Assembly: GCF_014700075.1 (NCBI RefSeq) | Contig: NZ_JACXBU010000018.1 | Span: 1-61,610, forward strand | Reading direction: 5' to 3' | Length of the DNA stretch: 61,610 nucleotides | Origin: Pseudomonas sp. JM0905a | GTDB taxonomy: Bacteria > Pseudomonadota > Gammaproteobacteria > Pseudomonadales > Pseudomonadaceae | Shown here: one piece after another, positions 56,781-61,610 of the stretch | How the letters are laid out: each line of letters starts with the position of its first letter | How positions within the stretch are numbered: the first letter of the stretch is position 1 | Position numbers and translations under genes: made by a program | Notes under the pieces: generated by a model | Database searches by the model: none | What the model saw: the letters and a program-made list of their open reading frames with translations, nothing else | Told to the model about the DNA's origin: nothing

Positions 56781-57716
56781 ATGTCCCTGAAACGCATCAT
56801 CAGTGTCGGCGCGACCCTGCTCATCCTCACCGTGGCGGTCGTGCTGGTGCGCACCCTTTGGCTGCACTACATGGATTCCCCCTGGACCCGCGACGGCCGC
56901 GTGCGCGCCGACGTGATCAACATCGCCCCCGACGTGGCCGGGCTGGTGGCCGATGTGCAGGTGCGGGACAACCAGAACGTAAAGGCCGGGGACCTGCTGC
57001 TGCGCATCGATCCCGCCCATTACCAGGTGGCGGTGAAACAGGCCGAAGCCCTGGTGGCGGCGCGCAAGGCCGCGCTGGATATGCGCAGGGTGAATGCCGA
57101 CCGCCGCGCCGACATGGACGACCTGGTGGTCTCCCGTGAGAGCCGTGAGGATGCCGGCCACCTGGCTGCCTCCGCTCTGGCGGAATACCAGGAGGCGGTC
57201 GCCGCCCTGGACGCCGCGAAGCTCAACCTGGCGCGCACCGAAGTGCGAGCCCCGGTGTCCGGCCACATCACCAACCTCAATGTCTACAAGGGCGACTTCG
57301 CAGAACGCGGTGAAGCGAGCATGGCGCTGGTGGATGACAGCTCCTTCTACGTCAACGGCTACTTCGAAGAGACGCGCCTGCCGCACATCAAGGTGGGTGA
57401 CCGTGCCGAGCTGCGCCTGATGAGCGGAGAGCGCATCAGCGGCCATGTGGACAGCATCGCCCGTGGCATCTACGACCGCGACAACCCGGAAAGCCGCGAG
57501 CTGATCGCCGATGTGAACCCCACCTTCAACTGGGTGCGCCTGGCCCAGCGCGTGCCGGTGCGCATCCACCTCGACGAGGTGCCGGAGGGCGTGCTGCTGG
57601 CCGCCGGGATGACCTGCACCGTGGTAATCGGCGAAGAGGGCAGGGAGCCGGAAACCTCTGGCCTGCTCAACCGATTATTGTTCGCCCTTTCATTCCGGAA
57701 CCCTACTAACGATTAG
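56781..57716 (+). CDS. HlyD/AaeA-like membrane fusion protein, system 2
   Basis: A 311-aa adaptor paralogous to the product at 39.4 kb, with anchor ISVGATLLILTVAVVLVRTL, the shared HYM-SPWTRDGRVRADV segment, lipoyl halves and NWVRLAQRVPVRIHLDEVP. It has a C-terminal extension (EEGREPETSGLLNRLLFAL) missing from system 1. Last gene of its operon; sequence composition changes sharply just after it. Confidence 0.92.
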   Translation: MSLKRIISVGATLLILTVAVVLVRTLWLHYMDSPWTRDGRVRADVINIAPDVAGLVADVQVRDNQNVKAGDLLLRIDPAHYQVAVKQAEALVAARKAALDMRRVNADRRADMDDLVVSRESREDAGHLAASALAEYQEAVAALDAAKLNLARTEVRAPVSGHITNLNVYKGDFAERGEASMALVDDSSFYVNGYFEETRLPHIKVGDRAELRLMSGERISGHVDSIARGIYDRDNPESRELIADVNPTFNWVRLAQRVPVRIHLDEVPEGVLLAAGMTCTVVIGEEGREPETSGLLNRLLFALSFRNPTND

Positions 57717-57894: not shown

Positions 57895-58116
57895 CTACAG
57901 CTCTGACATCTGAGGCAGAAGAGAGGACGGGTCGCAGGCGAGCTCGCTGGCGATCCGATATAGCTTTTCGACGGTAATGTTTACTTCACCCCGCTCGATC
58001 CGCCCCATGTAGCTGCGGTCGATACTGCAGGCCAACGCTAGAGCATCTTGCGAAATCCGGCAGGCATTCCTCTGTGCCCGGATGCGTTCCCCTAGCGCTT
58101 TCGCCAAGTTGTCCAT
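57895..58116 (-). CDS. XRE-family controller-type regulator
   Basis: A 73-aa single-domain helix-turn-helix protein: LGERIRAQRNACRISQDALA, then IDRSYMGRIERGEVNITVEKLYRIASELACDPSSLLP. The SYxxRIERGExNIT pattern is that of C (controller) proteins of restriction-modification systems and of related defence-island regulators. The start is placed at 58116 (MDNLAKAL); an in-frame start at 58167 is possible. Divergent from the two-gene operon at 58221, with a palindromic promoter between them. Confidence 0.85.
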   Translation of the reverse strand: MDNLAKALGERIRAQRNACRISQDALALACSIDRSYMGRIERGEVNITVEKLYRIASELACDPSSLLPQMSEL

Positions 58117-58155
58117 GACCGTCTCAATTTCACTTGAGGCGGAACTATCGTGCGT

Positions 58156-58186
58156 TTGCGGACGCACAGGCCACGGATTATAATCC
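58156..58186 (+). promoter_or_regulatory. Promoter with embedded palindromic operator
   Basis: TTGCGG (58156-58161), a 17-bp spacer and TATAAT (58179-58184). The -10 lies within the perfect palindrome GGATTATAATCC (58175-58186), and the -35 between inverted TGCGT/ACGCA copies (58151-58155, 58162-58166). The palindrome also presents TATAAT to the minus strand, so it may drive the XRE gene too. Confidence 0.65.
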
Positions 58187-58220
58187 GCATTTCTTTCGCG
58201 TTAACTCTTGTGGTTCCTCG

Positions 58221-58811
58221 ATGAAAACGGCCTCGTTTACCTTCGACAGGCGTCTGTATGAGCTGCTTCAGGAGGAAGCGCGGGCAAGGTTCACCACTCG
58301 TGAACTGCGTGATGCTTATGCCAAGCGCCTGGATGGCATGAATTTCCGTATCGGCGATTTACGTCGCTATGTGTATGAGCAAATCCGCCGAATGCTGCGC
58401 ATCGGCTGGGTTGTACTCGATGAGGAGCGTCGGTCGCGGGGGCAGGTCTACCGCCTGCAGTCCACACCGGCCCACCTGCAGCTGGAGCTGATCGACAACG
58501 GGTTCGAGAACAGTCTCAAATCTTCCTCTGAGCCAATGCAGGAACCTTCAGGTCCTGATGCACCGTCTGGACCGCTTGCACCTTCATCCAGCGCGGAGCA
58601 GCACTTGGAAGCGCTCCACAACGAGATCCGCTTGGACTTCCTGTCGTCGATGGGCGAGGCGGAGCGATACAAGCTGCTCCTGGATGAGTTGCCGCATCTG
58701 CGAGACAAGGTCGAAGCCGAATACCTGGAGGCTAGAGACCGCAGTTCACGCTTGCTCGGGCATCTCCGGGCTATCGAGAAGACACTCAAGACGCTTGCTG
58801 CTGCACGATGA
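58221..58811 (+). CDS. Unrecognised 196-aa protein: winged-helix-like head and coiled-coil tail
   Basis: I do not recognise a family. Residues 1-90 look like a winged-helix domain (TTRELRDAYAKRLDGMNF; DLRRYVYEQIRRMLRIGWVV; a basic hairpin EERRSRGQVYRL). A Pro/Ser-rich linker (about 97-125) and a charged helical, probably coiled-coil, C-terminus (about 125-196) follow. Its TGA overlaps the helicase ATG (ATGA), so the two are co-translated and probably partners. The ATG at 58221 is the best start; the frame is open to 58134. A DNA-binding adaptor for the helicase is a guess. Confidence 0.75.
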   Translation: MKTASFTFDRRLYELLQEEARARFTTRELRDAYAKRLDGMNFRIGDLRRYVYEQIRRMLRIGWVVLDEERRSRGQVYRLQSTPAHLQLELIDNGFENSLKSSSEPMQEPSGPDAPSGPLAPSSSAEQHLEALHNEIRLDFLSSMGEAERYKLLLDELPHLRDKVEAEYLEARDRSSRLLGHLRAIEKTLKTLAAAR

Positions 58812-60208
58812 CTAGATCGCTACGAGACTGGCAGTTCAGCTGCATCAAAAGGGCGTTGGAGCACTTTACCGTCACGCCGCACTTCTTCTGCCAGGCAACG
58901 CCGGGCGCCGGCAAGACGCGTATGGCGGCAGAGCTGGCTGGCAAACTGCTTGAGCAGGACAAGATCGATCTGGTGTTGTGCTTTGCGCCATCTTGCCAAG
59001 TTGTTGAAGGCTTTCGCTCGACCTTTGCGGCGGTGCTCGGCAGACGTCTGGATGGGCAAATGGGCGCAGTGGGAGCGGCGTTCACCTACCAGGCCATGGA
59101 GTACCGAGATGAAGGGTTCTGGCAGCTGCTTGATGACTATCGAGTGCTCGTGGTCTTCGATGAAATTCACCACTGTGCTGGTCATGACCCACTGCTCAGC
59201 AACGCCTGGGGTCAGCAGATACTCCGCCGGATACAAGACCGGGCGGCCTTCACCTTGGCTCTTTCCGGCACACCATGGCGTTCGGACGACAGGGCCATTG
59301 CCCAGGCGCGTTATTCGACGCCCGAGAGGCACTTGATCTGCGACTACCGCTACGGCCTGAAAGAAGCCATCGCCGACGGAGTGTGCCGTTCGCCTCGCAT
59401 TGTCCTGCTCGACAATCAGAAAGTGAAACTCACCGAGGAGTTGGGCACTGAAAGCACTGTGAGGATGTTTCCCAGCATCGCGAAGCTGTTGGGGGAATCA
59501 CCCGTCACCTACGAAGAACTGCTGCGGCACGACGAGGTGATCGAGGAACTGCTTGGCCTCGGCTGCAGCAAACTGGATGAGCTTCGCCAGAGCAAACCTG
59601 ATGCGGCTGGTTTGGTGGTCGCCACTGACATCGAGCACGCCCAGCAAATTGCTCGAGCCCTAGGCGCCAGGGGTGAGGGTTGCCGCATCGTGACCAACAA
59701 AACCCCCGATGCGCAGCACGTGATCAATGCGTTCAGGGATGGCGCCTGCCGTTGGATTGTTGCGGTTGGAATGATCAGCGAAGGCACGGACATCCCACGA
59801 CTGCAAGTGTGTTGTTATCTCAGCCGCATTCGCACCGAGTTGCACTACCGGCAAGTGCTGGGACGAGTGCTTCGGCGCACAGGCAAGTCCGATGATCAGG
59901 CTTGGTTGTTTATGCTTGCGGAATTGACCTTACAAGGTTTTGCAGAGCGAATCGCGGATGACTTGCCGGATGACCTGGCGGTACTAAACGCGATACAGAT
60001 ACCCGCCTCCACTCGAGATAAAACGCCCGGTCCGACAGGCGCTGTCGGCAACATCAGCGAACTCGATCGGAACATTAGAAGTAACACCGATCAGACTATT
60101 GGAAAAGACCCCGCAGGCACCGTTTCTCTAGGGGGCTTTACAGCCGAGCCAAGTTACCAGGTGAGTTTTTCCCAGTACTACAGGCAGCAGTTGCTAGCTT
60201 GTTTCTAA
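58808..60208 (+). CDS. SF2 DEAD/DEAH-type helicase (restriction Res-like)
   Basis: A 466-aa two-RecA-domain helicase. Walker A ATPGAGKTR (K36), motif II D118-E-I-H-H, motif III SGTPW (S153), motif V-like GMISEGTDIPRL and motif VI GRVLRRTG (R353, R356). DEIHH and SGTP are typical of type I/III restriction and defence helicases, not of RNA helicases. The C-terminal 60 residues are low in recognisable motifs and no nuclease domain is seen. The start overlaps the preceding gene. Codon use is less GC-rich than in core genes here, suggesting transfer. Confidence 0.88.
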   Translation: MTRSLRDWQFSCIKRALEHFTVTPHFFCQATPGAGKTRMAAELAGKLLEQDKIDLVLCFAPSCQVVEGFRSTFAAVLGRRLDGQMGAVGAAFTYQAMEYRDEGFWQLLDDYRVLVVFDEIHHCAGHDPLLSNAWGQQILRRIQDRAAFTLALSGTPWRSDDRAIAQARYSTPERHLICDYRYGLKEAIADGVCRSPRIVLLDNQKVKLTEELGTESTVRMFPSIAKLLGESPVTYEELLRHDEVIEELLGLGCSKLDELRQSKPDAAGLVVATDIEHAQQIARALGARGEGCRIVTNKTPDAQHVINAFRDGACRWIVAVGMISEGTDIPRLQVCCYLSRIRTELHYRQVLGRVLRRTGKSDDQAWLFMLAELTLQGFAERIADDLPDDLAVLNAIQIPASTRDKTPGPTGAVGNISELDRNIRSNTDQTIGKDPAGTVSLGGFTAEPSYQVSFSQYYRQQLLACF

Positions 60209-60220
60209 TACTGCGACGCC

Positions 60221-61253
60221 TTGCTCAGTTCTAGCGTGTCCACTTTGGAAAGCAGACAGGATCGACTGCTTCATTGGTCAGAAAAAACCAGGAGAGCATG
60301 GGAACCAAAATTCAGTCCGGCGCAGTTACCAGCAGGCGATCGAGCACTTCGAAGTGAGCTGGGGCGGCTTCTTACCGGCCACCAGCGAGAGCATCGCGCG
60401 CTACCTGGCCGACCATGCCGGCACGCTGGCGGCCAACACGCTGAAACTGCGTTTGGCCGCCCTGGCGCAATGGCACACCAGCCAGGGCTTTCCCGACCCG
60501 ACCAAGAGTCCCCTGGTGCGCCAGGTGCTGAAGGGCATCCGCACCCTGTACCCGAAACCGGAGAAGCAGGCTGAGCCGCTGCAACTGCGCGAGTTGGAGC
60601 GGTGCGTGGTTTGGTAGGAGCGGGTCGGGGAGGCGGCCCGTGTGGCAGGTGACCGGTCGCGACTACTGCGCTGCTGGCGGGACCGGGCTCTGCTGCTTGG
60701 CTTCTGGCGCGCCTTTCGCAGCGACGAGCTGTGTCGTCTGCAGATCGAGCACATCCAGGTGCGGCCGGGCGAGGGCATGCAACTGTTCCTGCCCTGGAGC
60801 AAGGCGGACCGTGACAACCAGGGGCGGACTTACCAGGCGCCAGCGTTGGCTCAGTTCTGCCCGGTGCAGGCCTATCTCGACTGGATCAGTGTCGCGGGCC
60901 TCACGCGTGAGCCGGTGTTCCGTGGCATTGACCGCTGGGGGCATTTGGACGAGCAGGCGCTGCACTCGCACAGCATCATTCCGCTGCTGCGTGCCGTGCT
61001 GAAGGGGGCCGGTTTACCCGCTGAGGCGTACAGCAGCCATTCCCTGCGCCGCGGGTTCGCCACCTGGGCGACCAGTAACGGTTGGGATCAGAAGGCGCTG
61101 ATGAGCTATGTCGGCTGGCGCGACGCCAAGTCGGCGCTGCGCCTTATCGAAAGCAGTGGCGTTTTCCCGGGGCAACTCCGGCCTTGGGCCTCCAGTGTTG
61201 AGTACGCTGCGCTACCGACCTTGCCGGGTCCAGATGCTTGGCGGGGTAATTGA
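60221..61253 (+). pseudogene. Inactivated tyrosine recombinase/integrase
   Basis: Three defects are visible. The N-terminal part (STLESRQDRLLHWSEKTRRAW) is in one frame and RSYQQAIEHFEVSWGGFLPA continues in another, so there is a frameshift near 60300-60320. An in-frame TAG at 60615-60617 follows ELERCVVW. The expected nucleophile Tyr after WRDAKSALR appears as Leu (RLIESSG). The rest is intact: core-binding domain, AFRSDELCRL, and the HSLRRGFATWA box. It looks like a decayed integrase of the inserted segment. Confidence 0.85.
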
Positions 61254-61610
61254 CCGGCTTGGGTGGTTGGATGTGGGAGGTGATGCGGACTACAGGTCGC
61301 GCTATCAATGGGGCGGGCGACCTCGCGCGCCGCTAGACGCCCCCGTGCTCCACAGCCTGCATCGACCTGACCAAGGCCTGGTTAATCCACCAAGGTCGCG
61401 AGCAAGGCCATGGCAAGCTTCACATATGTCTGCCTTACGCCAAAGGCTCTAGTCCAAGGGAATCGGCGGTAAGTTGGGCGATTTTATGTTCAGCCCGCGA
61501 TTATGCGGAGTCGCCCTAGAGGGACGGCGCAGGGGTCGATTCGGCGCACATTCCGCCTTTGATAGGCCTTCTCCACTCGCCATAAAAGTTGGTGGTTTCC
61601 TGTGATCTCT
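61254..61610. other. Right-end 357-bp region without a gene
   Basis: No supported reading frame. The short frames here lack start context. It may hold the right end of the inserted segment, but no repeat of a left-end sequence was found. Confidence 0.4.

Follow-up and report, generated by a model that had tools for sequence, protein, structure and literature searches.

The window analyzed here is the whole 61,610-nucleotide contig NZ_JACXBU010000018.1 of Pseudomonas sp. JM0905a, and the subject is a group of three genes near its right end that lies just inside one terminus of a large integrated element of the strand-biased circularizing integrative element (SE) type. This triad comprises a gene for a 73-aa XRE family regulator on the reverse strand (57895–58116), a divergently oriented gene for a 196-aa protein with winged-helix and helical parts, hereafter p196 (58221–58811, forward strand), and a gene for a 466-aa superfamily 2 (SF2) helicase (58808–60208, forward strand). 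An earlier note, made from the sequence alone, had proposed these open reading frames (ORFs) as a possible undescribed defense-like module; the ORFs lie where it placed them, and the p196 and helicase genes, which it called translationally coupled, share a 4-base ATGA overlap (58808–58811). The lower GC content it reported is also present, at 0.58–0.60 across the triad versus 0.63–0.69 in most intervals to the left. The 14–20 kb part of the window is a second low-GC stretch (0.55–0.61).

Regulator, p196, and Helicase

The XRE protein matches HTH_3 (E = 1.3e-10) and the PADLOC model Control_protein (E = 2.9e-13). Its start was placed at the ATG at 58116, with a GTG at 58167 as an upstream alternative, because the annotated XRE proteins of the Pseudomonas relatives (L002–L007) are 73–81 aa long and leave gaps of 101–104 bases before the 196-aa gene. 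The divergent promoter region (58117–58220; 104 bases) is conserved in an alignment of nine loci and contains the perfect palindrome CGGATTATAATCCG (58174–58187), which encloses a −10-like TATAAT and is a candidate operator. Among 75 loci examined, 33 have the exact palindrome and 39 a version with a single mismatch, 72 in total, and three lack it; a GCCTC..GAGGC repeat is found near the XRE gene in only 25. A small XRE protein encoded divergently from an operon, next to a palindromic candidate operator, resembles the C (controller) proteins of restriction systems, and the C-protein-like character suggested by the earlier note is thus supported at the level of sequence. Unlike in those systems, the operon that would be governed here encodes p196 and a helicase instead of restriction enzymes.

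The p196 protein has no PADLOC or PHROGs match at E up to 1 and only sub-threshold matches in Pfam (0.0085) and NCBIfam (0.012), such that no family in these four collections exceeds its cut-off and the protein is as unrecognized as was first reported. An AlphaFold2 model based on 53 sequences (mean pLDDT 83.1, pTM 0.50) has an N-terminal winged-helix-like part followed by two long C-terminal helices. VanR/PadR regulators are the top Foldseek matches, although weak ones (E = 3.9e-4 to 7.8e-4, TM-score about 0.3), and the other matches are single winged-helix domains. Sequence searches of the PDB gave a best E of only 0.66, and Foldseek comparison with viral models gave nothing at E up to 0.001. 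A further likeness concerns VspR, the negative regulator of the cyclic-oligonucleotide-based antiphage signaling system (CBASS) operon on VSP-1 of Vibrio cholerae (PMC10653837, available portion). A Vibrio relative of p196 in locus L008 carries the annotation label VspR, and both proteins occur near CBASS genes. However, the available portion of PMC10653837 mentions no helicase partner for VspR.

The helicase matches ResIII (E = 5.8e-12) and Helicase_C (E = 2.2e-7), and its profile finds the structures of RadD and XPB. Residues invariant in 13 diverse relatives include GxGK (33–36), DEIHH (118–122), GTPWR (154–158), and QVLGRxLR (349–356), which we take to be the main motor motifs; the DEIHH and SGTP motifs had been pointed out from the single sequence. 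The motor core is shared with RadD/XPB-type SF2 helicases. However, the best NCBIfam relative, RadD, scores 47.7 bits versus a cut-off of 720, and the C-terminal region of RadD was not recognized. PADLOC searches returned only partial and weak matches (best PbeA, 6.9e-15 over 249 residues), and the triad does not qualify as Hachiman or another PADLOC-listed helicase system, its p196 partner matching no PADLOC model. The absence of a match to a named defense system that the earlier note reported therefore persists. The AlphaFold2 model of the helicase is of low confidence (mean pLDDT 49.8) and was left out of the fold search. An ordinary type I or III restriction-modification system was rejected, as it had been before, because no methyltransferase or nuclease subunit was found in the three triad proteins.

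The Triad Stands at the End of an SE-Type Element

The flank to the left of the triad is present in all 18 genus genomes searched. In 12 of these, read base by base, the core similarity stops at 57685–57687 of the window and other core sequence follows, indicating an empty site; genomes G040, G052, G101, and G115 were outside this reading. The core-genome edge previously put at 57.7 kb is therefore exact. It falls at the 3' end of a gene encoding a membrane-fusion protein and is followed by the 6-base footprint CTTTCA (57687–57692), which is missing from the 12 empty sites. Inserted DNA starts at 57693 with the C'-type terminus TTCCGGAACCCTACTAAC (57693–57710, forward strand). Another genome, G108, bears an insertion at the same site as the window genome (G000). 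The two flanks are otherwise continuous as in the empty sites, and between flank and TTCCGGAAC each genome has a footprint of the kind known from SEs, CTTTCA in G000 and CACTGA in G108. Because these footprints differ at one target, the two elements appear to have been inserted separately. The empty-site comparison covers this shared site, the insertions of G011, G028, and G086 being outside it.

The same terminus is present in G108 and adjoins unrelated flanks in G011, G028, and G086, and a variant is found in L097. Apart from that variant, none of the 80 helicase loci described below yielded this terminus, so that the element end is proven for the subfamily of the window only. In this subfamily, the triad begins about 200 bases from the C' end. 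At the far side, the right core flank corresponds to G108:4316838-4317291 and G000:C38:464122-464572, and the right terminal sequence is common to G000, G108, G028, and G086; these four elements, at three sites, thus have both ends in common. The elements are 89.3 kb (G108), 137.4 kb (G028), and 38.5 kb (G086) long. That of the window genome measures at least 88.7 kb, with its ends on contigs C9 and C38 and a presumed path between them through the repeat C18, which is entered from both. Position 57693 is the end of this large integrated element. The transfer proposed in the earlier note is borne out, as the module moves horizontally and sits at an element terminus. A real, co-conserved, and mobile unit was correctly seen there, whereas the more basic identity of the locus, an SE-type element terminus, was missed.

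The recombinase genes of the island lie at the opposite end, outside the window. Four overlapping genes are found there, encoding proteins of 391–411, 559, 630–634, and 142 aa, and the first product is a clear tyrosine recombinase (PF00589, 2.4e-19). When compared with a database limited to the four proteins encoded by the SE next to blaGMA-1 on pAQU1, the island proteins pair one-to-one with IntA (9.6e-11), Tfp (1.7e-4), IntB (1.1e-9), and Srap (1.5e-5), the Tfp and Srap matches being weak. Comparison of the families with hhalign clearly supported the first and third, weakly the fourth (30%), and hardly the second (9%). The defining features of SEs are the gene order intA-tfp-intB-srap, imperfect repeats of 13–19 bases at the ends, and a footprint of 6 bases adjacent to the C' end; most of their termini in Pseudomonas chromosomes were left unidentified in that description (PMC10214605, available portion). 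The island has the four core genes in that order, the C' footprint, and a GC content below that of the host; its ends may also form imperfect inverted repeats, being identical at 9 of 14 positions at a fixed register in four elements (chance 0.002 per comparison). The first genes encountered inside this SE-type element from its intA-distal end are thus shown to be those of the triad. On the other hand, the resolved elements of about 38, 89, and 137 kb contrast with a published SE maximum of 58.5 kb, and the available portion of PMC10214605 does not mention the XRE/p196/helicase module or any other accessory module of SEs. The word "helicase" occurs zero times in the accessible main texts of PMC10214605 and PMC5385486, no publication pairing "strand-biased circularizing" with "helicase" was found, and neither was a description of the module in the open-license literature. 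The kind of element is already known, and its size and end-module are new.

Two other kinds of islands show similarities. The related GInts, or ginABCD islands (PMC5385486, available portion), likewise have three recombinase-type genes with a small fourth one, all at one end, and they also insert at gene ends and carry variable cargo. However, the large second recombinase gene of the island in the window genome is in third place, as in SEs, and this gene order and the match to the pAQU1 SE would set it apart. The Gamma-mobile-trio (GMT), recognized here by NCBIfam names, directly adjoins the triad as GmtXYZ in L013, and phmmer matches to GmtX/GmtZ lie near the triad in L053, L055, and L073. 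In contrast, the element of the window has SE-type genes and no GmtZ match. GmtZ exceeds its cut-off in 12 of 198 Pseudomonadaceae genomes, four of which also have p196, with no clear association.

In G011, a left end and a triad (C1:2796953 onward; L223 and L224) are present and an intB search gave no match; this element may be immobilized or truncated. A 20-kb piece of the G108 island, compared with plasmids, has matches covering at most 5% of its length.

Distribution and Recombinase Partners

Scanning genome contigs with the helicase profile matched 466 stretches, of which the best 80 were kept as loci and examined with at most 10 kb of flank. The p196 gene is directly 5' of the helicase gene in 77 of the 80; of the three exceptions, L083 yielded no p196, L087 lacks the start of the helicase gene, and L096 has p196 but a helicase gene that leaves the contig. 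A divergent XRE gene is located −968 to −892 bases from the helicase start in 71 loci. Among the nine loci without a placed XRE gene, five have the helicase start no more than about 630 bases from the beginning of the contig, and L096 has the XRE gene without a complete helicase ORF as reference for the distance. The dN/dS ratios of all three genes are 0.18–0.20 relative to G108 and G011. The XRE, p196, and helicase genes are thus shown to form a conserved transcription unit under purifying selection. The neighborhood survey that the earlier note had recommended finds the pair co-conserved and repeatedly near known defense genes, with neither gene assigned to a named system or housekeeping family above cut-off.

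The distribution of the module is patchy. Matches to p196 are found in 40 of 198 Pseudomonadaceae genomes and in one of 369 genomes sampled across the class, which is the genome of the window itself. Among plasmid records, p196 is matched in 17 and the helicase in 54. The Escherichia coli version of p196 has matches in nine of 5,426 E. coli genomes, and in five of these the match spans at least 80% of the query. No p196 match was found among 50,697 phage genome records at E up to 1, and helicase relatives among viral contigs are at most 35% identical; an origin from phage or prophage was rejected on both grounds. In two E. coli chromosomes (L134 and L135), the triad is directly followed by gorA, with ars genes on the opposite side; an IS2 separates the p196 gene from the helicase gene in L135, and a gene for an SE-type recombinase lies nearby in L134. 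An ORF of about 87 aa without a match in Pfam or PADLOC lies near the triad in 21 of the 80 loci, mostly directly 3' of the helicase gene (for example, L035:3397-3660), and is possibly a further part of the module.

The linkage between p196 and the SE-type recombinase IntB was evaluated in the same 198 genomes. Each has matches in 40 genomes and both co-occur in 21 (odds ratio 8.1, p = 1.8e-7), intB being present in 21 of 40 genomes with p196 versus 19 of 158 without. In 14 of the 21 genomes with both, the two genes are on one contig within 140 kb (12 within 40 kb), whereas five have them on different contigs, including the genome of the window, and two have them megabases apart. Several of the near intB matches, weak ones with E = 1e-6 to 1e-7, represent another, 700-aa recombinase type encoded 10–11 kb upstream. 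A different recombinase pair of about 700 and 435 aa was seen 7–12 kb 5' of p196 in G126, G161, G103, G060, and G141 (L259–L263), with an HsdM gene between this pair and p196 in G126, G060, and G103. Of 16 triad regions read on plasmids and in E. coli, 10 contain SE-type recombinase matches and one (L013) contains GmtXYZ. Many element pairs combine p196 proteins that are 75–86% identical with IntB proteins that are only 17–20% identical, which argues that the module has been exchanged between recombinase sets. Judged by such sequence comparisons, the triad is shown to be an exchangeable module not bound to one recombinase; the idea that it is an obligate partner of one recombinase was rejected by the genome counts and by this mismatch in identity. 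Control of the recombinases through the palindrome was also rejected. In the scanned parts of four islands (G108, G000, G086, and G028 without its middle), the palindrome is found only at the triad, with no other copy at up to two mismatches.

Defense Neighbors and Possible Functions

Several genes near the triad are related to defense. HsdM lies within 10 kb of at least 11 of 44 p196 copies versus 0.25 expected, and DUF6088 (AbiEi-type) lies within 5 kb of 10 of the 44 versus 0.04 expected. Other neighbors include an anti-phage DUF499/DUF1156/DUF3780/PLD set in L003, SIR2 and TrlF in L009, and restriction genes in L002. A complete CapV-DncV-Cap2-Cap3 CBASS operon was observed a few kb from the triad on the E. 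coli plasmid pWL297 (L132:6603-13392), where a cassette of SE-type recombinase genes lies to the opposite side of the triad.

The reading favored here, with a probability of roughly 0.5, is that the triad is an exchangeable, self-regulated module of mobile islands that acts in defense or exclusion. It is preferred because of the exchange between recombinase sets, the restriction-type controller, and the defense neighborhood. In the corresponding mechanism, the XRE protein, and perhaps p196 too, would occupy the palindrome, which spans the −10 box, and would thereby hold the divergent promoter at a low set point, by analogy with C-proteins in restriction modules. The p196 protein may serve as the DNA-recognition subunit and the helicase as the ATP-driven effector. 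In the least certain step, the two together would act against incoming DNA such as phages, plasmids, or rival elements, and such action could benefit the island and the host alike. A fuller version is put forward more tentatively. In it, p196 and the helicase would form a previously undescribed immune or exclusion system of two proteins, governed by a C-protein-like regulator. SE-type islands and other islands with several recombinases would spread this system as a swappable end-module and would thus have their own defense against phages and rival elements.

Several findings weigh against defense or exclusion. A methylase, nuclease, or killing domain was not found in the three triad proteins with PADLOC, Pfam, NCBIfam, and PHROGs. 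Expected neighbor counts assume a mean genome of 4.7 Mb, and at 60% identity the neighbors collapse into few groups (12 HsdR into one, 10 HsdM into one, and 15 DUF6088 into two), so that the neighbor counts reflect few events and are not independent. Genes for ars, ter, and phosphite functions are also cargo near the triad. In the island of the window, the ten cargo genes scanned beyond the right end look metabolic or regulatory; by these ten genes in about 85 kb of cargo, this copy of the triad does not look as if it is itself in an obvious defense island. Moreover, SE-type recombinase matches occur in only 10 of the 80 genome loci within the flank examined, and among 22 elements with both genes the distances between p196 proteins are correlated with those between IntB proteins (r = 0.49, permutation p = 2e-4), which is not expected from pure swapping.

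This correlation, together with the co-occurrence of p196 and intB and the position of the triad about 200 bases from the C' end, is what would be expected if the module assisted transposition or replication, with p196 binding near the element end and loading the helicase to open or displace strands during SE copy-out/copy-in or circle replication. The available portion of PMC10214605 puts forward a copy-out-like pathway that depends on replication, and no helicase encoded by the element is named there. However, the same source describes cargo-free SEs down to 6.35 kb in size and calls four genes essential, which implies that a helicase is not needed in general. Furthermore, 19 of the 40 p196 genomes have no intB match and 19 of the 40 intB genomes no p196 match, similar p196 proteins pair with highly divergent IntB proteins, and the scanned parts of the islands showed no palindrome close to the recombinase genes. 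Such a helper role is therefore rather unlikely. A regulatory module, with p196 as a VspR/PadR-like transcription factor over the island cargo and the helicase as its partner, would agree with the VspR annotation in L008, the function of VspR at the VSP-1 CBASS operon, and the top rank of VanR/PadR in the fold comparison (E = 3.9e-4). It is nonetheless improbable, as the TM-scores are only about 0.3, the VspR likeness comes from one annotation label, no copy of the palindrome lies 5' of other genes in the parts scanned, and repression needs no motor ATPase. The closest named relatives of the helicase, RadD and XPB, are repair helicases, and the triad could also be an ordinary passenger, consisting of a RadD-like repair helicase, a DNA-binding partner, and an autoregulator kept on mobile DNA by chance. 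The low RadD score, the strict linkage of the three genes, their enrichment near mobile and defense genes, and the presence of p196 in only one of 369 genomes sampled across the class, that of the window, leave this explanation only a slim chance.

Large segments of DNA travel between Gammaproteobacteria on SE-type elements, and such islands can be searched for by means of their exact ends, the 6-base footprint, and the recurring helicase module. The triad also offers a concrete gene pair for questions of defense, exclusion, or help in transposition. If the defense reading is true, the module would add a nuclease-less helicase system and explain why one module recurs on unrelated mobile islands.

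Right End of the Window

To the right of the triad, a tyrosine integrase remnant (60354–61253, forward strand) consists of open pieces, with a PF00589 match (9.8e-9) on 60642–61253 and an extra open piece at 60354–60617. The earlier note was right that this integrase is broken; it is, however, a separate fragment that does not belong to the triad, and the recombinases of the element lie at the far end of the island. The contig ends with a 127-base assembly overlap (61484–61610) identical to C18:1-127 and to the end of C38. The 3437-base contig C18 (L129) has inverted repeats at its termini and encodes three tyrosine recombinases of 431, 380, and 336 aa in overlapping ORFs, all matching PF00589; no match was found when it was compared with plasmids. 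From these features, the repeat looks like a recombinase in trio (RIT) element, and it is probably present in at least two copies, since it is entered from both C9 and C38. Near the C38 end that leads into C18, a reverse transcriptase ORF (L246:18835-19575; RVT_1, 4.9e-22) is present.

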